Below, piece by piece: positions 4,189 through 30,572 of a stretch of 30,572 bases of DNA. The DNA comes from a virus. Location of the stretch: positions 1-30,572 of the IMG/VR virus record IMGVR_UViG_3300025127_000156; one strand, written 5' to 3'. How positions within the stretch are numbered: position 1 is the first letter of the stretch; each line of letters opens with the position of its first letter. The translations under genes and the position numbers were made by a program. The notes under the pieces are model-generated. The model ran no database searches and had not been told where the DNA came from. It was given only the letters and a program-made list of their open reading frames with translations.

Positions 4189-4976
4189 TTAATTTCTGTT
4201 TTTCATTGATTCATAATCTTTAGAGTAACATAAAAAAGTAAAACATTCCTCTGCTGTCATTTTTAAAATTTGATTTTGTTTTGTTATATCCCCGTTGCTC
4301 ATATTATATATTACTCCGTACCAACCCCATTTGCTTGCAAAGTCGTTTTGGTTTGCAAGTCGCCTTTCGTTTTCATCATCTTTTTTTGTTCTTTGCTCAA
4401 ATATAATTGCATAACGCTCTGATACTCCTTTCCTATAGTTAAAAAAAAATTGGCCGCCCCATTTGTTGTAGCCATACTTAATTTATCCCTAAACATCTGT
4501 GCCCTTTCAAAACATTCATCACTATTATATCCCTCGATAGCATATTTGGAATTTTTCTTGCCATATTTTGACTTTGTTATTGGTCTGTACAATATGGCCA
4601 TTATGTAGTGCATATTTTTCCATATATCCTCTAAATAGTTATCCAAATCCACAAACTCACCAAATGTTATATCTTTTAAGTTTGGGTGGAAACCATAATC
4701 AACACCATCAATATTTATTATTGTATTTAATGTAGTGTTCATTTTTTTACTTGACAATGTTTGTAATTGTACTTTAATTTTGTCAATATCTGTTTTCCTT
4801 ATTTGTTTTACAGTATCAATTGGTAATTTGGTAAATGCACTTATTGCATACAAATCAATCAAATGTTCATCATTTATGTCTTTTGTATTTTTCATAAAAT
4901 CTTGATACATTCCAAGTCCTACTTCATTCCATTTTTCGGGTATTCTATATTCCTTGTCTTTAACTGTTAATAACAT
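4189..4976 (-). CDS. Tail assembly chaperone GT fusion by -1 frameshift (262 aa)
   Basis: This is the predicted long product of the tail chaperone gene. Ribosomes read codons 1-199 of the 221-aa gene to the heptamer A_AAA_AAG (4386-4380, in register as CAA AAA AAG), slip back one base and continue in the -1 frame. That frame is open for 63 more codons to TAA at 4191-4189, giving 262 aa. The extension contains FASKWGWYGVIYNMSNGDI and then KMTAEECFTFLCYSKD, which recalls the T domains of phage tail chaperones (WGWYG followed by a short helical ECxTFL segment). In lambda and many siphophages G and GT escort the tape measure protein during tail assembly. The T part also has its own ATG at 4302 (37 aa) as an alternative way to make it. 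The frameshift is inferred from sequence, not measured. Confidence 0.8.
4311..4976 (-). CDS. Tail assembly chaperone G-like protein
   Basis: The zero-frame product is 221 aa. It is a mainly helical, soluble protein (start MLLTVKDKEYRIPEKWNEV) with the segment HPNLKDITFGEFVDLDNYL near residue 100 and a long C-terminal helix. It ends 22 residues after the slippery site (last residues ANGVGTE). It has no catalytic motif. Known role of the class: the short G product is made in excess over GT, and both bind the tape measure protein. Here it is the first gene after the terminase and follows a candidate late promoter (4996-5014). Canonically it would sit just before the tape measure gene; here the 163-, 150-, 173-, 526-, 720- and 418-aa genes, plus a small 43-aa ORF, lie in between. 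Confidence 0.75.
   Translation of the reverse strand: MLLTVKDKEYRIPEKWNEVGLGMYQDFMKNTKDINDEHLIDLYAISAFTKLPIDTVKQIRKTDIDKIKVQLQTLSSKKMNTTLNTIINIDGVDYGFHPNLKDITFGEFVDLDNYLEDIWKNMHYIMAILYRPITKSKYGKKNSKYAIEGYNSDECFERAQMFRDKLSMATTNGAANFFLTIGKEYQSVMQLYLSKEQKKMMKTKGDLQTKTTLQANGVGTE
4334..4386 (-). promoter_or_regulatory. Programmed -1 frameshift signal: A_AAA_AAG plus hairpin
   Basis: The slippery heptamer A_AAA_AAG occupies 4386-4380 in the correct register (CAA AAA AAG). A perfect 8-bp inverted repeat follows: CTTGCAAA (4359-4352), a 10-nt loop, and TTTGCAAG (4341-4334). The 20-nt gap between slippery site and stem is longer than the usual 5-9 nt, so the hairpin may be only partly stimulatory, or A_AAA_AAG may slip without help, as this heptamer is known to do efficiently in bacteria. 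Confidence 0.75.
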
Positions 4977-5097: not shown

Positions 5098-6411
5098 TTA
5101 TTGCACATAATACTTTCCAACATTCGGTCTCAACTCATAATACATTCGCATCATTATCGCATCACTAAAATCCGGTGAACGACCAATAATTGCTTTGACT
5201 TTTTCCTTTGGCAGTATTGCTAACTTACTATCTTTATCAATTTTATCCCTACGGACTTGTTCTAGTTCTTTTAAGACACTTTCTTTTATTTTAGGATTGT
5301 TACTATTAATGAACATATTTCCTGCGTTTATACACTCTGCTAATTTATAGTAACATTGTGTTTTTAAATTTACATAATTCTCATTATTAATAACCTTTCC
5401 ATTGTTTTTAAATCCTCTACACTTTAAAATGTCTGTAACACCACCACCAATTCCATCATCATCTACGATTATGTTTGATAATCTTACATTTTGTGTTCTC
5501 TGTATGTCTTTTATTATATTACTTGCTTCCACAATAGTATTTGTATCTAATACCCTTATTTGTTCTGCTCGTAATCCATTCCAATATATAATAACTGTTT
5601 TGTCCTTACCAAATCTTGCTACATCACAACTAATATATTTTTCCCCACCATTCAAGTCTTGATTATCAAATAAATTTAGTATTGCATTGTATTCGATTAA
5701 TTTATCCTCACTATCGTCATATTCCCAATTTCCAAATAACAACCTTTGTTTACTTATTTCATCAAGTTTCTGTAATTGGTCCTCATAGTGCCTACTGATG
5801 TGTATGTTATCACTCGCTAATGATTGTATGAATTTACGATATTCTTTTAACTCATTATTTTTATTAGGCAAATAAAATTCATTGTACACCCAATTTTTTG
5901 CCGGGTTACAACTCATAAATAATTTTGGTATTAGATTATTCTCGTCAAGTTTATATCTTAACCTAGATGACAGTATTGTTTTGGCTTTATGTGTTATTTG
6001 GTTACACTCATCAACAAAGGCATATGTTAATTCAAGTGAACCTAAACTATCGTAATTAGGGTCTGCAGGATAATGAAATAAATCTTTTAACATTATTTCA
6101 CTACCATTATAGAATTTAATTATGTTGCTACCTGCGTTAAATGTAAAATCCTTTCCACTAACAAGTTTCCATTCTTTACATATTTCAAAGAAAGTATTTA
6201 ATGTTGTTTTTTTTAGATTGTCAAGTTTACTTCTACCAATTAGGCATCTTATTCCTTTGTATTTTATACAAGAATAAATAATCCAAGCACAACCCAAATA
6301 GGATTTACCACCACCGGCACCACCACCGAATAATAATTCAGTTGTTGTGTTATCCAACAAGTATCTAAATGCTTTACTTTGTTTTGGTGTGAATTCACTT
6401 TCAATCCTCAT
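5098..6411 (-). CDS. terL: Terminase large subunit
   Basis: A 437-aa DNA-packaging motor protein with an N-terminal ATPase and a C-terminal RNase-H-like nuclease. Walker A is LLFGGGAGGGKS (residues ~27-38), Walker B is LTYAFVDE (~130), and the coupling motif is MSCNPA (~167). The nuclease acidic residues are visible in CDVARFGKDKT (~258), in IIVDDDGIGGG (~315) and in the C-terminal SPDFSDAIMM (~413). Length and order match full TerL proteins, so it appears complete. It overlaps the small subunit gene by 11 bp. The packaging mechanism (cos or pac) cannot be deduced here; circular permutation of the contig is compatible with headful packaging. Confidence 0.95.
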   Translation of the reverse strand: MRIESEFTPKQSKAFRYLLDNTTTELLFGGGAGGGKSYLGCAWIIYSCIKYKGIRCLIGRSKLDNLKKTTLNTFFEICKEWKLVSGKDFTFNAGSNIIKFYNGSEIMLKDLFHYPADPNYDSLGSLELTYAFVDECNQITHKAKTILSSRLRYKLDENNLIPKLFMSCNPAKNWVYNEFYLPNKNNELKEYRKFIQSLASDNIHISRHYEDQLQKLDEISKQRLLFGNWEYDDSEDKLIEYNAILNLFDNQDLNGGEKYISCDVARFGKDKTVIIYWNGLRAEQIRVLDTNTIVEASNIIKDIQRTQNVRLSNIIVDDDGIGGGVTDILKCRGFKNNGKVINNENYVNLKTQCYYKLAECINAGNMFINSNNPKIKESVLKELEQVRRDKIDKDSKLAILPKEKVKAIIGRSPDFSDAIMMRMYYELRPNVGKYYVQ

Positions 6412-6739: not shown

Positions 6740-7580
6740 TTTTTATTTTTTTTATCCAATCCTCTAATGTGTATTTTGGTTTCCATTTCAATAGTTTTTT
6801 ACTATCATTTTTAGGCAATATAGCATATTCTCTCTCCCCTCGTGGTTGTGCAATATATGTTCTTGTCCATTTAAACATATCTGCAATATCATTTATAGAA
6901 TATTCTTGCTCTGAACTTAAATACCATTCTGAATTGTGTTTCTGTTTCTCTACTTTTAATATCCCGTCAATTAAATCTTTTATATATGTAAATTGTCTTG
7001 TTTGTTTTCCGTTGCCATATATTGTTAATGGTATATTGTTTTTGTATTGTTCCTCAAATTTACCAATAACTGTTGCATAATCTCCTTTACATATTTGGTT
7101 TTCACCATATACATTATAGAAATAACATATTTGATAGTTTATGTCATACCATTCTCCATAATTCTTAATCAGTTCTACCATTTTACTTTTTACCCAACTA
7201 TATGGACTTAGGTTTTCATTGTTTCCAAATTTACTACTTGAAGCACTATAAATTAATTTTGCATCATTTTTCCTACAATGCTCTATAACACTAGTTGTTC
7301 CCATTAAATTATATTGGAATAACTTTTCTATGTCTTTAAATGAAGGTACAACCCTACTATATTCTCCGAAATGATAAACAATATCAAATGCATCGTAATT
7401 ATCAATATCCCAAGTATTGCCATCATAATATGTAACACCATCTATATGATTTTCCTTTTTACCGGTAAAATAATTGTCCAACGAATATATATCGTGTTGA
7501 GCATATTTTATATTTGTTGTTAATGCTCGTAATAAATTGCTTCCGATAAATCCTGCACCACCCGTTACTAATATCCTCAT
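6726..7580 (-). CDS. NAD-dependent nucleotide-sugar epimerase/dehydratase
   Basis: A 284-aa extended short-chain dehydrogenase. The N-terminus has the Rossmann motif TGGAGFIGS (residues 6-14), an acidic residue ending the second strand (SLDNY) and the catalytic YxxxK as SPYSWVKSKM (~127-136), preceded by the Ser-rich SASSSKFG. The C-terminal part carries YNVYGENQ and GNGKQTRQFTYIKDLIDGI, typical of UDP-glucose 4-epimerase/dTDP-glucose dehydratase relatives. It should interconvert or modify a nucleotide sugar; the exact substrate is unknown. It overlaps the glycosyltransferase gene upstream as ATGA, so it probably supplies or tailors the sugar donor for the two adjacent transferases. Confidence 0.85.
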   Translation of the reverse strand: MRILVTGGAGFIGSNLLRALTTNIKYAQHDIYSLDNYFTGKKENHIDGVTYYDGNTWDIDNYDAFDIVYHFGEYSRVVPSFKDIEKLFQYNLMGTTSVIEHCRKNDAKLIYSASSSKFGNNENLSPYSWVKSKMVELIKNYGEWYDINYQICYFYNVYGENQICKGDYATVIGKFEEQYKNNIPLTIYGNGKQTRQFTYIKDLIDGILKVEKQKHNSEWYLSSEQEYSINDIADMFKWTRTYIAQPRGEREYAILPKNDSKKLLKWKPKYTLEDWIKKIKSGQK

Positions 7581-8461
7581 TTGTATTTTTTATAGAATTT
7601 TTTTACTTTCTCGCTTTTTATTTCTCTGACTTGTTTTAATTTTAATTTGTATTCCTTTTTTTCTATTTCATTCCAATCAATATCTTTTCTTCTTGCAAGT
7701 CCGTGTTTAAAATGACCTTTCCAATTTACATAATGATGTGGTCTGCCAAATCTTTTTATCGTTTTACAATATTGAGGCCATACTTCCTCTAGGCTTCTAG
7801 ATTTTAGTACCTTTTTTTCAAATGCGTTATTCTGATACAATTCATCTTGGTTTCCACCTTTCATTTTTACTATTGTGCTTGTTTTATCAATAGTGAAAAT
7901 ATTGAATAATGCTGTACAATATCTATTATCTAATACTTGTAAACATAAATCCACATCTTCGTTATATTTCATTCGCCATCTATATGGCATATTGTTTTTT
8001 ATTAATAATGCAGAATACACATGACAATTTAAATAGAATGGTTTTTTATCTGAACTACCCGGAACAACAAATGTGGAATAATTAAATCCACTAATATGTA
8101 AATTAATGTATCTGTCTGTAAATTCCTCAACACATTCTATTGCTGTTTGTGTTTTACAAGGTATTTTTTTACCATTTTGTACTCTCCTTATTTGTCTGAT
8201 ATTGTCGTCAAATATCCAATGTCTTTCGTGGCCATTTTTTATACTATGTTCCCAAGCAAAATTTCTTGCCGGATAACTCCCTTGACCTAAATTACTAAAA
8301 TCTGTTTTTAATATATATTGTTCGCCTATGTGTTCGCAATACAAATCATATTCTTGTGGCTCTACCACTACAAGAAAATCAACCCCATCCTCTTTAAAGA
8401 ATTTTGCTGTCTGATGATTTTCCCATCTACCCTTTGATACTATATAGATTGGATATTTCAT
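7577..8461 (-). CDS. TET-associated glycosyltransferase-like protein, copy 2
   Basis: A 294-aa protein with the TAGT-type GT-A pattern. The start is PIYIVSKGRWENHQTAKFF, then VVVEPQEYDLY, the NLGQGSYPARNFAWEHS segment (~60-74), the metal-binding HWIFDDNI (~82-89) and a second acidic motif YNEDVDLCLQVL (~165-176). TAGT enzymes are known from comparative genomics as transferases that glycosylate modified bases in phage DNA, usually near TET/JBP oxygenases. Here none is present. It is about 30 residues longer than copy 1, with a very Lys-rich C-terminus (EKKEYKLKLKQ, VKKFYKKYK) that could bind nucleic acid. It overlaps copy 1 by 4 bp. The acceptor and sugar are unknown. Confidence 0.75.
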   Translation of the reverse strand: MKYPIYIVSKGRWENHQTAKFFKEDGVDFLVVVEPQEYDLYCEHIGEQYILKTDFSNLGQGSYPARNFAWEHSIKNGHERHWIFDDNIRQIRRVQNGKKIPCKTQTAIECVEEFTDRYINLHISGFNYSTFVVPGSSDKKPFYLNCHVYSALLIKNNMPYRWRMKYNEDVDLCLQVLDNRYCTALFNIFTIDKTSTIVKMKGGNQDELYQNNAFEKKVLKSRSLEEVWPQYCKTIKRFGRPHHYVNWKGHFKHGLARRKDIDWNEIEKKEYKLKLKQVREIKSEKVKKFYKKYK

Positions 8462-9240
8462 TTTTTCATTAATGGTATTTGCTTAAATGTTTTCCATATC
8501 CTACTTGGTTTTACCTCTGATTGTCCATTCTTTTCATATTCTACAAACCATTCGGGATATTCATTAGCAAGTGTCATATTCATCTTTTTTCTACCATTGT
8601 TCATATAATCAACACTTGAATTGCAACCACCTTTCATACTTCCACTTTTTGGCTTCTTTAAACTAAATTTATTAAAAACCATTGTTACCCAACCCTCTTT
8701 TAATAATCGCACACTAAAATCTACATCTTCACTTGTTCTTGGCTGGTATCTTGCTTTAATTTCATTATTAATTAATTGAAAACAATATATCATTTTATTA
8801 ATATCAATATCATTTTTTTTAGAAAAAGCAAATCCATCGTGAGTAAAACAACCACCACCATAATTCACACACCTATCTGCTATTTCCTCTATTTCCAATA
8901 ATGCTTTTGTTGGGTTTTCAATTTTTGTTCTTGCTCTAAAACCTTTTCTTTTATCCATTGGTCTGAAAAATACTGACTGTATATTATCATCAATCTGCCA
9001 ATGTTTTTTATGTCCATTTAATTTAGACCAATTTATACAGAAGTTCCTAGTGTAGTAAACTCCCATATTGTCCTTTTGGATATTTACAACTTTATCTTTT
9101 CCAAACCTTTTTACATAACTTTGATAATCTTGTGGCTCAACCATATAGAAATAATCAATATTATGCTCGTCAAATAGCAAGTGTGTAGTACAAGTTTCTG
9201 CCCTATCCTTACTGATTATACATATTGGATATTTATTCAT
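8458..9240 (-). CDS. TET-associated glycosyltransferase-like protein, copy 1
   Basis: A 260-aa paralogue of the next gene. It keeps the same ordered motifs: KYPICIISKDRAETC at the start, YMVEPQDYQSYVKRFG (~30-46), NMGVYYTRNF (~58-67), HWQIDDNIQSVFFRP (~80-94) and RTSEDVDFSVRLL (~165-177), then KSGSMKGGC. The paired acidic motifs (DDN and EDVD) match the two metal and substrate sites expected for a GT-A fold. Divergence from copy 2 in the middle suggests a different acceptor or sugar rather than a recent duplicate. It overlaps the ParB-domain gene by 8 bp, so all four genes of the module are translationally linked. Base glycosylation is inferred from family and context only. Confidence 0.75.
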   Translation of the reverse strand: MNKYPICIISKDRAETCTTHLLFDEHNIDYFYMVEPQDYQSYVKRFGKDKVVNIQKDNMGVYYTRNFCINWSKLNGHKKHWQIDDNIQSVFFRPMDKRKGFRARTKIENPTKALLEIEEIADRCVNYGGGCFTHDGFAFSKKNDIDINKMIYCFQLINNEIKARYQPRTSEDVDFSVRLLKEGWVTMVFNKFSLKKPKSGSMKGGCNSSVDYMNNGRKKMNMTLANEYPEWFVEYEKNGQSEVKPSRIWKTFKQIPLMKK

Positions 9241-9856
9241 ATTTTAAACTGCTTAAATCTTGTCTGTTATCGTATGGATATATTGCACTCCATACTCTAT
9301 CAGATTTTAAGGAAAATTCCATTTTATGTTTTATTGCAAATTCCTCTCTATCCTTTTCGCTTTCAAAGGCAATATAAATTTTGTATTCTTTATCTTTTTG
9401 GTCAAACTCCGGCATACCTACCCATTCACTATTTTCATCACCGGTATTTACTTTTGCTACATCATCAGGGTTTTGCCATACCGGTAAAGCCCAATCGTCA
9501 AGTTTTGTAGTATCCCAATTGGCTAACATATTCCAATCCCATTCACCATAACCTACATTGTCCTTTATGATTATTTCCTCACAAACCTCATCATAACTTT
9601 TTTTTTGTCCGGTTTTTTTATGTGCTTCCCTATCATATATTACAACGGGTATTTCTTTTAATCCGGCAACCTTACACGCTCTGTATCTCATATTCCCACC
9701 TAAAATAATCATATTTTCATCTACGATTATTGGTCGCATATCTAACATTTGTGGTAAATCTTTTATGCTTTGTACTAATTTTTCAAATTTACTATCCTTA
9801 ATAATTCTAGGATTGTTAGGATTTACTTTGACTTTGTTTATCTTTATTGTCTGCAT
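9233..9856 (-). CDS. ParB N-domain (ParB/Srx fold) protein
   Basis: A 207-aa protein. Residues 1-75 are a ParB/sulfiredoxin-fold domain: NKVKVNPNNPRIIKD, then LVQSIKDLPQML, then RPIIVDENMIILGGNMRYRACKVAG, including the characteristic GGNMRYRA nucleotide-binding loop. The middle holds WDWNMLANWDTTKLDDWALP, a pattern common in phage ParB proteins linked to DNA methylases. The C-terminal ~60 residues (YKIYIAFESEKDREEFAIKH) form an extra alpha/beta region. Phage ParB proteins of this type are often NTP-using accessory factors of DNA-modification loci. Being coupled to two TAGT-like genes supports that here. It overlaps the DUF3310-like gene by 41 bp. Confidence 0.75.
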   Translation of the reverse strand: MQTIKINKVKVNPNNPRIIKDSKFEKLVQSIKDLPQMLDMRPIIVDENMIILGGNMRYRACKVAGLKEIPVVIYDREAHKKTGQKKSYDEVCEEIIIKDNVGYGEWDWNMLANWDTTKLDDWALPVWQNPDDVAKVNTGDENSEWVGMPEFDQKDKEYKIYIAFESEKDREEFAIKHKMEFSLKSDRVWSAIYPYDNRQDLSSLKYE

Positions 9857-10781: not shown

Positions 10782-11286
10782 CTATTTTATTTTTAATATG
10801 TTCCTTAACATTTTTTATTGTGTAAAAAATACTCCTACGACTGATACCCGTTTTTTCTGATAATGATGTATATGTATATTTTGTTCCCTCGTTTGTTCCA
10901 AAATAATATAACTTAAAAAGTTCCCTATCATACCAATATATATCATCAAGAATTGTCATAATTTTTTCAATACTATTATCTGCTGTACTATTAGTAAATA
11001 TAAAATCATCCAAATTAGTTCGTGTATAATCAATATGTTGTGTTCCGTATTTTTTTATTTTGTAATAAAATCTGCTCGTTTTAGAGTGATACATATTTGC
11101 CATTATTCTTGCACCAAAAAAAAACAACCTACCATTTTTTTTGATAGATTGTAATTCATCTTTTGGATATTGGTACATAGCCAATATACATTCGTGCAGT
11201 AAATCGTCTGCCATTTCTGTTTTACATATATTCTTGGCTATGTCAAGTAGTTTGTTGTATTCGGAATTTGTAATATCCACGAACAC
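10768..11286 (-). CDS. Sigma-70-like transcription factor
   Basis: A 172-aa protein resembling small phage sigma-like factors. Residues 22-45 (CKTEMADDLLHECILAMYQYP) recall the start of region 2, an aromatic/basic segment with FGARIMANMYHSKTSRFYYK follows, and residues 140-165 form a region-4-like helix-turn-helix (TYTSLSEKTGISRRSIFYTI). The start is GTG at 11286, with a second GTG two codons later; no ATG lies near. It would redirect host RNA polymerase or act as a late-gene activator. The distinct late promoter class in this genome would be a natural target, but that link is inference. Confidence 0.6.
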   Translation of the reverse strand: MFVDITNSEYNKLLDIAKNICKTEMADDLLHECILAMYQYPKDELQSIKKNGRLFFFGARIMANMYHSKTSRFYYKIKKYGTQHIDYTRTNLDDFIFTNSTADNSIEKIMTILDDIYWYDRELFKLYYFGTNEGTKYTYTSLSEKTGISRRSIFYTIKNVKEHIKNKIDESE

Positions 11287-24565: not shown

Positions 24566-25804
24566 TTATTTTTTATCTATTTGCTTTAATTTTGATATTG
24601 CCCAATTAATACCACTAGAGCCACCCCAAGCATCCCACATTATTCCACCACAACCCTCTGAATATGGTACATCTTTGTGTTGTTGATGTCGTTTAAATGA
24701 CGCCATTCTTGCAATAGTATCTCTTGATATTGGTTTCCTATCTGCTAATTGTCTTGCCCTTGTCCAACCTACCTTTGTACCACAAGTGCTACCATTTTCC
24801 TCTTTATATTTTATTGCTCTTTTAGCGTTATTGGTTGCACCTTTCGGATAATCAGTATAGCTTTCTAATTCACTTTTTTTTTTACCCTCAATAGGTACAC
24901 AATTAGGAACTTTTTTACCGTCTTTTATTTTATGACCTATCGGCTCATAACCATCCCAACAAGGATTTGGACTAATAAATTCACTATCCAATACCAATTC
25001 TGATAGTGCTTCAATAATATCGTGGTCGCTACAAGGCATAAACAAACCATCGTGTTCGTGATAACCCTCACAACCCATTTCTTTTGCTACTTCTATCGCT
25101 TCCTCTTTGGTTTCATATAATGGCATTCCATCAATTTCTGCTACTTTCTCGTATTTCTTTTTCTTTTTCTTTTTTCCTAGTGTTTCCATTTTATCTACAA
25201 AATATCCTTCAATACTTAATCCCTTCAATTCTCCCTCTTTTATCCTATTCCATACCTCATCATTCTCAATTCGCATTGTTACAAACCAAGTACCATTAGG
25301 CACATTAAATCCATATAGTTTTGACTTGTCCATTTTTGCATCTTGTACAATCCAACTCTCTATTGTGTGTACCCCATCTGTATTTTCATTGTGTTGTATT
25401 GTTGCACTATTGTTATTGTTATAGCGTAAATACATTTCACTTGCTTTTTTTACAGTTTCCTCTGTAAAGTACACATAGTATTCTTGTCCACTAGTTTCGT
25501 CAAATCTATATATTTGTTTGTTAGGTATTAATGCCGGACTGATTAATAATCTCTGCTCATCAATAGTTTTAGCCAATACCAAATTATTTTTTTTCTTATT
25601 TAGGTATACAAAATCCACTTCTATTGCCGGTTCAGATACTAAAGAAATTGCGTCAATAGCAACATCCAAATTTTCATCATCAACAACAAGTTCTACAATT
25701 TCAGTATATTGGTTTGCATTTTCACATTCTTGCAAACTATCATACATACAATCTCCTTTTGTACCCCACTTATATTTTCCATTTTTACATTTATTACACG
25801 GCAT
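24566..25804 (-). CDS. XkdF-type prohead protease with multiple cysteine modules
   Basis: A 412-aa mosaic protein. An N-terminal Cys module (MPCNKCKNGKYKWGTKGDCM) is followed by an XkdF-like protease domain (~35-210), with the candidate catalytic His in SATIQHNENTDG (~137) and Ser in GELKGLSIEGYF (~200). Three further modules follow: GMPLYETKEEAIEVAKEMGC with EGYHEHDGLFMPCSDHD, PCWDGYEPIGHKIKDGKKVP with NCVPI, and a C-terminal ~95 aa with YPKGATNNAKRAIKYK, TCGTKVGWTRARQLADR and CGGIMWDAWGG. The protease should mature the capsid and scaffold. The cysteine modules recur in Bacteroidetes phage head proteins, and their role is unknown. Confidence 0.8.
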   Translation of the reverse strand: MPCNKCKNGKYKWGTKGDCMYDSLQECENANQYTEIVELVVDDENLDVAIDAISLVSEPAIEVDFVYLNKKKNNLVLAKTIDEQRLLISPALIPNKQIYRFDETSGQEYYVYFTEETVKKASEMYLRYNNNNSATIQHNENTDGVHTIESWIVQDAKMDKSKLYGFNVPNGTWFVTMRIENDEVWNRIKEGELKGLSIEGYFVDKMETLGKKKKKKKYEKVAEIDGMPLYETKEEAIEVAKEMGCEGYHEHDGLFMPCSDHDIIEALSELVLDSEFISPNPCWDGYEPIGHKIKDGKKVPNCVPIEGKKKSELESYTDYPKGATNNAKRAIKYKEENGSTCGTKVGWTRARQLADRKPISRDTIARMASFKRHQQHKDVPYSEGCGGIMWDAWGGSSGINWAISKLKQIDKK

Positions 25805-25814
25805 AATTTTAATT

Positions 25815-27725
25815 TTAGATTGTTGCTTTTCGTCTTATTTTAGTTAATTTATCTTGTTCGTTTGTCATATCATCTGCAACTACAAATGCTTTGACAACAC
25901 CGGAAGTGTTTCCACCACTCCCATCATTACCGGCAAATGCCCTACCACCACCGGCTTCGTTAATCGTACTTAATAATGGTTTAAACATTCTTGTACTTTT
26001 TGCATTGATAACACTTTCCCCTTTACTTAATTTTGCAGTCGTGCTATCACTATTTCCGGTACCAAATCCACCTACAATACCACCTTGTGCAAATGCCGGT
26101 GTGTTTTGTATATTCTTGACTTGTAACATACCTTGTGTTATTGCTAATGCAGCAAAAATTGCACCGATAGGAAAACCAAAATCTGCAAGTGATTTTGTTG
26201 CAGATTGGAATGTATTAATTAACGCTTCTGCTATTGCACCTCTTTTCTTGGCACCGGCAAATTGTTTTTTAATTTTTTCCATTTCCATTTGTTTCCTACC
26301 CTCAATCTGTGCAGTCAATTCTGCATTACCCTCTGCTGCCTTTAATTCACCGGCAAATTTATTCTCTATTGATTGTAGTTCATTTGCTTCTCTTTGTGCA
26401 GTTATATTTGATATTGATGAAGCCATTTGTGATGCTATATCTAAAGTGCTTTGCATTTGTTCATATACTGCATCCCTTTCCTCTTCCCTTGCTTTGTCTC
26501 TTATTTCCTTTAATTTTTCCTCTTTTTGTCTTTCAATATCCTCTGTATCCTCACCGGCTTTTATTGCCAATTTTATAAGTTCGTCATAATGCTGTTCTGT
26601 TTCAAGCAATTCTTTTTCCAAACCACTTATACTTTCTGCTGCAATTTGATTTTTAATATCAAGTAATTCTTTTTCTAACGATACTTGATTTGTTAATTGT
26701 TCTGACCTAAATCCCGTGATTTGTGCTTCAACACCTTTTTTCTCATTTATTGCTTCTTGTAATTTTATACGATTTTCTTGATTGTCTAACTCTTTTAAAT
26801 CTGCTTGTGCTGCCGCAATTTGTAAATCGGCTAGTGCCAACATATCCTTTTCTTGTTTATCAAGAATCTCTCCTAATTTTTTATTTGCATCTAATCTTTC
26901 TTGTATCGTAGCATTTTCATTATCTCTAATCTGTCTTTGTTTTTCTGCAAGTCTATCATTTTCCTCTATTAATCCTTGCATCTGTACTTTTGCTAGTGCC
27001 GCAGTATTTTCTAATCTCCTATTTGTCTTGGCTGTTTGTATTGCTTGTTGTACATCAATTTCACCTATACCCTTTGTAATTTGTTTTGTTATGTTTACTG
27101 TTTCTGTGACTGCTTCACCAAAGTTATCTACAATGCTTTTACCGGCATCCACAACATTATCTTTTATTTCTACGATTGACGCTGTTGTTTCTTTTATACC
27201 TTTTTCTAATTTTTTAATTTTCTTTGTATCACCACTACCTAAAATAGATTTTTCCCAAGCAAGTACTGCTTCTTGTATTCCTAATTTTAATCCATAAAAT
27301 GCTAATTGGAATGGTGCAATGGCAATAGTCATTATCCCTTTTATGACTTTTCCTAATGCATCAAAATTCTCATTATTTGCTGATACACTTTCATAAACAG
27401 ATACAAGTACATTTACGACTTGATTAAATACATTAGAAATAGTGTCAAATACTATCGCTATTGCATCTGCTATTTTTTGGTTTCTCTGTAATGCTTCTGA
27501 TAAAAATTCAAATACTTTAGATATAACCATTACGATACCGGTTGCCTTAACAAGACTACCAAAACTTGCACCAATTTTTTGTACACCTTTTGCAGCTTTT
27601 GGTGCTGCCTTTGCAGTATCCTCGGCGGCTTTACCTACATCTTCAATTCCCTCTTTTACATCTTCTAGTTTTTTCTCACTATCACCGGTATCAACACCGA
27701 CTTTTGCAATTATTTCTTCAGCCAT
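25815..27725 (-). CDS. Tape measure protein
   Basis: A 636-aa protein of long helices. An Ala/Lys-rich N-terminus (AAEDTAKAAPKAAKGVQKIG) is followed by hydrophobic segments (~65-160, including VFNQVVNVLVSVYESV and GIMTIAIAPFQLAFYGLKLG), a large charged coiled coil (~230-470) and a second hydrophobic segment (~515-535, IGAIFAALAITQGM). The Gly-rich end includes FAQGGIVGGFGTGNSDSTTA and SKGESVIN, typical for phage tape measures. At ~0.15 nm per residue a tail near 95 nm is expected. It lacks a lytic domain. Its chaperone genes are not adjacent, unlike the usual order. Confidence 0.9.
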   Translation of the reverse strand: MAEEIIAKVGVDTGDSEKKLEDVKEGIEDVGKAAEDTAKAAPKAAKGVQKIGASFGSLVKATGIVMVISKVFEFLSEALQRNQKIADAIAIVFDTISNVFNQVVNVLVSVYESVSANNENFDALGKVIKGIMTIAIAPFQLAFYGLKLGIQEAVLAWEKSILGSGDTKKIKKLEKGIKETTASIVEIKDNVVDAGKSIVDNFGEAVTETVNITKQITKGIGEIDVQQAIQTAKTNRRLENTAALAKVQMQGLIEENDRLAEKQRQIRDNENATIQERLDANKKLGEILDKQEKDMLALADLQIAAAQADLKELDNQENRIKLQEAINEKKGVEAQITGFRSEQLTNQVSLEKELLDIKNQIAAESISGLEKELLETEQHYDELIKLAIKAGEDTEDIERQKEEKLKEIRDKAREEERDAVYEQMQSTLDIASQMASSISNITAQREANELQSIENKFAGELKAAEGNAELTAQIEGRKQMEMEKIKKQFAGAKKRGAIAEALINTFQSATKSLADFGFPIGAIFAALAITQGMLQVKNIQNTPAFAQGGIVGGFGTGNSDSTTAKLSKGESVINAKSTRMFKPLLSTINEAGGGRAFAGNDGSGGNTSGVVKAFVVADDMTNEQDKLTKIRRKATI

Positions 27726-29087: not shown

Positions 29088-30572
29088 TATACCCTAATTA
29101 ATTCTACGCTTGATAATTTATTTTTGTCTGTATTATAGTCAACCTTATTTAATCTATAAAATTGGTCTTGTATTTGATATTTCGCTGAAAAATCTAAATT
29201 TAATATATCTGTTGCAGACAATACAATTTTACATTTTAACAATCTAGCATTATTGTTATATTTTTCATTGATATAATCTTTCCAAAACCTATTGTATAAT
29301 GTTCTTGTCGGTTGATTAGGTAATCCAACTATTGCACTAGGATTTATTGCACCAAATAAAAATGAATTAGATGAAGATGTACAACTTGCTATTTTTTTAT
29401 TATAGTGATGTATCTCGGGGTATTGATTAAATGATGTTCCCGGCAATACCCATTGAAACAATCCATTTGTAATGTCAATAATTTCCATAAAAGTACCGGT
29501 TGTTAAATCATCATTGTTATAACTACCTTTTAAGTGTACAATTCTTGGTTTATTTTTAAAAGATACAATTCCGTCATCTTCCTCTTTTCCGGAATGATGT
29601 AGATGTGTTGTATTGGCACCCTCTATTGTTCTTAAAAATGGTGCTGCAAATACTTTTAATTGTATATTTTCTATTTCCTCACTATCTGTACTAAATTGTA
29701 CCTTTTGCTGTCCGTAATGTATATCATTATCCAAGAAATAAGTATCCAAATAATAATCATTTGGCTCGTTTGCGTGTAAAAAATTTAATTCTTTCGGTAT
29801 TTCTACTGTTTCTAATTTTAATTCATTAATATCAACCTTATTTGTCCAATCAAATACATTAGAATTAATGTAATTAGGGTATGGAGTGAACTCTATTGTT
29901 CTGTTTCCTTTATCCTCTGTAATTACATTAAACATAGTCATCACATCTTTAACAACATCAGCCATTTTTACATCAGAGAATTGTGTTTCCATTAAACTAT
30001 TAATACTTTGGTCTTGTACTACAAACACAAATAGATTATCGTTACCGGCACCCAAACATAAGTTCCATTGATTTATGTGGTTTGGTGTGTTTTGTGTTGC
30101 ATAACTTGCGTGAAATGTAAATGCAGCAGTATCACCGGCAAGCATAGCGTGTGTTCCCGTAAATGTTATTGTGTTTTTATTTGCTAAACAAGGGTCGGGA
30201 TACCCACTTCCGGGATTACCACTTGTATGTGATTGCCAATCTACTGTTACCCCATTAATATTCATAAAAACATCAACCCAAGTGTTTGTAATGTTTACAA
30301 TCCTTAGTGTAATTACATAACTTAATGTGCAATCATTAGGTGCAGTATATGTGGATGTTGTTTCATTATAATCGTTATTAGGGTCTCCCGTTTTTATTGT
30401 CGTTGGTACTGCAATTGCTGTTCCGGGTGTTGTTCCTAAATGATACCCACTTACCGGATTATCACAACCACAAGAATAGGGACCGGTAGGTGTGTTTCTT
30501 GACCTTATTTCTTGGTCGGGTATTGTTTCACCAAAATTCCTTTTTGTTGTAGTATCCATATACAAATTTGCA
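29087..30572 (-). CDS. Tail hub/baseplate-like protein, 3' part (start at 1120)
   Basis: This frame is open to the right window end; the apparent start at 30565 is an internal TTG codon of the gene that begins at 1120. It covers the inserted-looking domain (TGPYSCGCDNPVSGYHLGTT, then NTWVDVFMNINGVTVDWQSH), then the hub-like region with KMADVVKDVMTMFNVITEDK and NSNVFDWTNKVDINEL. The DWTxK and VKDVMxMFN pair recurs in hub proteins of Bacteroidetes phages. With the left part the full protein is 720 aa. It may load the receptor-binding protein onto the tail tip. Confidence 0.85.
   Translation of the reverse strand, partial: ANLYMDTTTKRNFGETIPDQEIRSRNTPTGPYSCGCDNPVSGYHLGTTPGTAIAVPTTIKTGDPNNDYNETTSTYTAPNDCTLSYVITLRIVNITNTWVDVFMNINGVTVDWQSHTSGNPGSGYPDPCLANKNTITFTGTHAMLAGDTAAFTFHASYATQNTPNHINQWNLCLGAGNDNLFVFVVQDQSINSLMETQFSDVKMADVVKDVMTMFNVITEDKGNRTIEFTPYPNYINSNVFDWTNKVDINELKLETVEIPKELNFLHANEPNDYYLDTYFLDNDIHYGQQKVQFSTDSEEIENIQLKVFAAPFLRTIEGANTTHLHHSGKEEDDGIVSFKNKPRIVHLKGSYNNDDLTTGTFMEIIDITNGLFQWVLPGTSFNQYPEIHHYNKKIASCTSSSNSFLFGAINPSAIVGLPNQPTRTLYNRFWKDYINEKYNNNARLLKCKIVLSATDILNLDFSAKYQIQDQFYRLNKVDYNTDKNKLSSVELIRV
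30130..30572. repeat. Right copy of the 443-bp terminal overlap
   Basis: Matches bases 1-443 with five mismatches (30257, 30329, 30368, 30422 and 30455). See the left copy; the unit genome is therefore 1-30129. Confidence 0.95.

Follow-up and report, generated by a model that had tools for sequence, protein, structure and literature searches.

Organization of the G-like gene and its surroundings

The window analyzed in this study is a 30,572-nucleotide stretch of viral DNA (IMG/VR record IMGVR_UViG_3300025127_000156). Its two ends, 1-443 and 30130-30572, overlap by 443 bp at 98.9% identity with 5 mismatches. It therefore represents a circular or terminally redundant phage genome whose assembly contains some strain variation. 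The source virus is a Bacteroidota-type tailed phage. The features of the locus are listed below.

4311 to 4976, minus strand: G-like ORF in the 0 frame, 221 aa, putative tail assembly chaperone
4189 to 4443, minus strand: T-like extension that follows the T9 run in the -1 frame, reading FNYRKGVSERYAIIFEQRTKKDD...KWGWYGVI...FTFLCYSKDYESMKNRN, with its stop at 4191-4189
4441 to 4449, minus strand: T9 run, conserved frame-change site, in register and read AAT TTT TTT TTA in the G frame
4439 to 4441, minus strand: +1-frame TAA where the T9 run ends; loss of one U would give a truncated G of 178 aa
4380 to 4386, minus strand: A_AAA_AAG heptamer, in register, unconserved and probably incidental
4334 to 4359, minus strand: 8-bp inverted repeat proposed as a stimulator, unconserved and outside the predicted minimum-energy fold
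5098 to 6411, minus strand: large terminase subunit gene directly upstream of G (Terminase_3, E=5e-14)
25815 to 27725, minus strand: tape-measure protein gene (phrog_3336, E=1.5e-14)

The predicted G-T fusion has 262 aa. The -1 frame is already open from 4485, and hence it covers the T9 run too. A 37-aa ORF in the T frame begins with an ATG at 4302. A TerL-like match was found upstream of G in 141 of 148 relatives with sufficient flank, and by this comparison the gene order terL-G-T is conserved. The tape-measure gene is on the same strand of the circular genome, downstream of G/T at a distance of about 7 kb, with several genes in between. Upstream of the small terminase gene, two adjoining minus-strand genes at 7577-9240 (260 and 294 aa) are similar to one another (KYPIYIVSKGRWEN / KYPICIISKDRAET). 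Both look glycosyltransferase-like, and they adjoin an NAD-dependent epimerase-like gene (7580-6726).

The A_AAA_AAG heptamer and the hairpin are not conserved

The original prediction described a canonical ribosomal -1 frameshift at A_AAA_AAG, assisted by the downstream hairpin, which would join a T-like extension to the G-like protein. The elements it named were all present: the 221-aa ORF at 4976-4311 on the minus strand, the in-register heptamer at 4386-4380, 22 codons ahead of the stop, 63 open -1 codons ending at 4189, and an exact 8-bp inverted repeat (4334-4341/4352-4359) 20 nt past the heptamer. The alignment of relatives that it had proposed gave a divided answer. Six related loci keep the -1 frame and the T9 run, which lies about 60 nt upstream of the heptamer in the window, but A_AAA_AAG occurs in 0 of the 6. 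Three relatives 99% identical to the window carry CAAAAAATG in place of the heptamer and retain the entire -1 frame. Among the listed more distant relatives, only L029 has an identical heptamer equally far from the run. The conserved in-register heptamer of the X_XXY_YYZ type at this locus is U_UUU_UUU within the run.

The conserved T frame also starts about 60 nt before the heptamer. Conservation covers the residues NYRKGVSERYAIIFEQRTK, which the -1 frame encodes from the T9 run to the heptamer, and the peptide Gln-Lys-Lys-Asp-Asp, which had been put forward as the diagnostic junction, does not mark the frame change. In-frame heptamers are common in this AT-rich genome, with 33 of the homopolymer type and 84 of the X_XXY_YYZ type in 8,359 codons, and about 0.4 would be expected by chance between the T9 run and the G stop. 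The hairpin region was as stable as shuffled sequence (z = +0.67), and the unconserved 8-bp stem was missing from the minimum-energy fold. The 20-nt gap to the hairpin, previously regarded as unusual, needs no explanation. These results suggest that the G-like protein does acquire its T-like extension by a programmed frame change, as predicted and as the relatives support, whereas hairpin-assisted slipping at A_AAA_AAG is very improbable.

The T9 run is retained at the junction across relatives

The relatives were gathered by G or T protein similarity, blind to the run. The search with the -1-frame protein returned 191 relatives in the first alignment and 585 and 469 in two others, many of them overlapping. 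The best 80 loci of each list of relatives were examined, which gave 179 distinct junctions among the matches listed. Junctions were located via KWGWY and not via the T run. A run of T9 to T12 was found at 179 of the 179 distinct junctions examined (143 T9, 34 T10, one T11, and one T12), and none had eight or fewer T's. As a background, only 12 of 4,220 200-nt windows elsewhere within the same loci contained at least nine T's in a row. The T frame was -1 relative to G at 174 of the 179 junctions. The five exceptions (L031, L049, L060, L082, and L094) were single-base variants or fragments; in L031 and L060 the run is present and the frame is disturbed through an apparent indel. Near relatives differed by one T in two cases, L094 against L092 (T10 and T9) and L082 against L076 (T9 and T10), and the difference in L094 sets G and T in a single frame. 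Those in L082 and L094 could be sequencing errors or DNA-level slippage or length variation.

The junctions were then placed on a quick tree of 79 non-redundant lineages, in which several deep branches are unsure. About 5 phase changes in the G frame and 8 length changes were counted, and the run never fell below nine. Depending on the lineage, the run starts at codon position 1, 2, or 3. The +1 frame is shut within 0-8 codons in 79 of 79 lineages. Comparison across these relatives showed that the frame-change site is the T9 run.

Three other homopolymer runs were observed in genes of the window. A second coding-strand T9 (11116-11124) lies in a sigma-factor-like minus-strand ORF at 11286-10768 (RLFFFGARIMANMYHS), where the gain or loss of one U would shorten the product from 172 aa to 68 or 60. 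An A10 (24874-24883) in the minus-strand gene 25804-24566 and an A9 (9598-9606) in the minus-strand gene 9856-9233 are placed so that one A gained or lost would truncate the protein.

Both frames carry the mark of coding selection

Substitutions were counted in 315 close pairs; these are pair counts and not independent events. Before the run, the counts at G codon positions 1, 2, and 3 were 702, 678, and 2314, which is the wobble pattern of G. In the overlap they were 619, 813, and 890, as when both frames are constrained. Past the G stop they were 15, 291, and 42, the wobble pattern of T. As judged from these substitutions, both frames are under coding selection. The comparison with relatives also showed that the T-frame protein is conserved from the T9 run through to its end.

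Two further explanations were considered: an internal start could yield T as a protein of its own, or the -1 frame could be the end of G after decay or misassembly. An ATG is available at 4302 in the window, and GenBank lists gp41 of phage P12024L, the T piece of a relative, as a gene of its own. However, conservation of the T frame extends further upstream than any start codon. In the stretch from the run to KWGWY, this frame has no ATG in 160 of 174 loci and no ATG, GTG, or TTG in 108 of 174. Since those 108 loci lack start codons there, synthesis of T as part of a fusion is the simplest explanation. The T wobble pattern past the G stop speaks against decay or misassembly, as does the recurrence of this split in many separate assemblies and in two cultured phages. 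We therefore regard both explanations as highly unlikely.

Cultured phages of the family

When the window G and T were compared with named phages by tblastn, no match was found. With divergent T pieces as queries, the Nonlabens (Persicivirga) phages P12024L and P12024S were found to belong to the family. Both have the order terL-G-T. In P12024L, a T9 was read directly at the junction of gp40 and gp41, both annotated as hypothetical. P12024S has the same layout at gp38-gp39, and its T is 98.8% identical to that of P12024L. Their G is about 22% identical to that of the window. As the original prediction had anticipated, ordinary annotation misses the T link, and both phages carry G and T as two unconnected hypothetical genes. 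The genome-collection search gave a single match, a Bacteroidetes MAG.

Three other phages were rejected. Flavobacterium phage 11b and Cellulophaga phi10:1 matched only at the terminase, and portal genes adjoin the terminase there. In Flavobacterium phage 6H, the G-like gene ends without a T9, and the -1 frame stops at once. This 6H gene (L258, 10927-10352) is a fold-level relative of G, and a long putative tail protein is encoded downstream of it. Its end carries U_UUU_UUC, and after it comes a long unannotated ORF, an arrangement that is possibly a different recoding or a sequencing error.

Transcription or translation as the step of the frame change

Two products are predicted for the gene at 4976-4189. 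One is G, with 221 aa in the 0 frame, and the other, presumably scarcer, is a G-T fusion of 262 aa. The fusion would leave the G frame at the T9 run and continue in the -1 frame. In the mechanism that we favor, RNA polymerase would slip on the T9 tract, with U9 RNA on an A9 template, so that some transcripts gain one U or lose two. Normal translation of these mRNAs would yield G-T, and transcripts that lose one U would yield G cut off at the run. By analogy with lambda, the slippage rate would set the ratio of G to G-T.

A previous report considered that a run of nine A's or nine T's whose length is conserved among all homologs is very likely to serve purposeful transcriptional slippage (Baranov et al. 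2005, PMC1088944). Such an A/T homopolymer, of at least nine and of conserved length among homologs, is what we found here. The RNA:DNA hybrid spans 9-10 bp (PMC5009743), and the T9 tract is about as long.

The same run could instead be a site of ribosomal -1 frameshifting, in which two Phe-tRNAs slip on U_UUU_UUU/A/G with no stimulator, similar to the lambda type. This is possible because every run examined contains U_UUU_UUU in register, and -1 is the sole productive frame. The G/GT shifts known from phages have been attributed to the ribosome, and some have no stimulator (PMC5009743). The length of the run argues for the polymerase: a ribosomal heptamer needs only seven T's, whereas the run stays at nine or more through all three phases. 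The force of this argument rests on the ninth T and on few independent phase changes, because the amino-acid constraints of the two frames (...FF... in G and FF[F/L] in the fusion) explain about eight T's. Furthermore, U_UUU_UUC, which is synonymous for G, was never seen at the run, although TTC makes up 22% of the upstream Phe codons in G. No RNA structure above background was detected downstream of the run in 136 loci (mean z -0.34, against -0.36 and -0.26 in control windows), and there was no excess of structure upstream of it in the same number of loci. The closure of the +1 frame would suit a mechanism that errs in both directions. This argument is weak because the Phe and Arg/Lys codons concerned (F-R/F-K) are also constrained by the overlapping G frame.

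One quantitative point counts against slippage. Lambda makes G and G-T at a ratio of 30:1, for which a slippage rate well below that of the bacterial genes would be enough. In comparable bacterial genes, slippage amounts to 15-55% (PMC4256274).

Transcriptional slippage is favored because the length of the run is kept regardless of phase and no stimulator was found. Ribosomal frameshifting at the run is a possible but less likely explanation. These comparisons suggest that the locus is a two-product gene with its frame change by transcriptional slippage at the T9 run, to which we assign a probability of about 0.64; the frame change most likely takes place during transcription.

Putative role of G and G-T as tail assembly chaperones

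From the two-frame architecture and by analogy with lambda, we infer that G and G-T are tail assembly chaperones. Comparison of relatives showed that the G and T frames overlap and that a net -1 shift between them would give a G-T fusion. G matched phrog_32199, which has no assigned function, with E=1e-8, as did 61 of 61 aligned relatives. A match to phrog_166, annotated as a tail protein, was found in 2 of these 61 relatives. The Pfam search with the window G protein gave no match, and a weak Phage_TAC_7 match (E=0.0018) was obtained in 1 of the 61 relatives. A fold search of BFVD with G weakly matched an annotated chaperone (E=0.026), and sequence and fold searches of the PDB gave no match. 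The AlphaFold model of G had a pLDDT of 86. Known G/GT pairs sit just before the tape-measure gene and beside that of the major tail protein; G/T here follows the terminase, about 7 kb upstream of the tape-measure gene.

Comparison with known systems

The lambda-type G/GT frameshift in the tail assembly chaperone gene was reportedly treated by Xu, Hendrix, and Duda in 2004. The present locus resembles that system in its overlapping ORFs, in the short C-terminal T, which a net -1 shift late in G adds, and in having the shifted frame as the only productive one (PMC5009743). It differs in several respects. The site here is a T9-T12 homopolymer kept by length, whereas the lambda-type heptamer varies among phages. 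G and T have no clear sequence match to known chaperone families and adjoin the terminase, away from the tape measure. The mechanism here is probably transcriptional.

Programmed transcriptional slippage has been described in bacteria for Shigella mxiE and spa13, Citrobacter tssM, Thermus dnaX, and IS elements (PMC1088944, PMC4256274). These genes share with the present locus a slippage-prone, length-conserved A/T run of at least nine, a product in the shifted frame, and no RNA stimulator found. In contrast, the candidate described here is a tailed-phage chaperone-like gene conserved across a wide viral family.

Meaning for the phage family

To our knowledge, nearly all long-tailed phages are assumed to use ribosomal frameshifting for G/GT. 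We consider it reasonably probable that, in a large family of Bacteroidota-type tailed phages, the balance between the chaperone isoforms is set by programmed slippage of RNA polymerase on T9, and not by ribosomal frameshifting. In the open literature, with subscription papers and preprints outside the scope of the search, we found no account of a phage tail-chaperone gene that uses transcriptional slippage. If the slippage reading is true, this is the first such case that we could find.

For annotation, a simple rule follows, namely to join G and T across a run of at least nine T's beside terL. Applied to hundreds of viral contigs and to two cultured phages, it would mend annotations in which T is overlooked or stands as a gene of its own. 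It seems that these phages arrived at the same protein architecture by way of the polymerase. If this is true, selection keeps the isoform ratio and not the mechanism.
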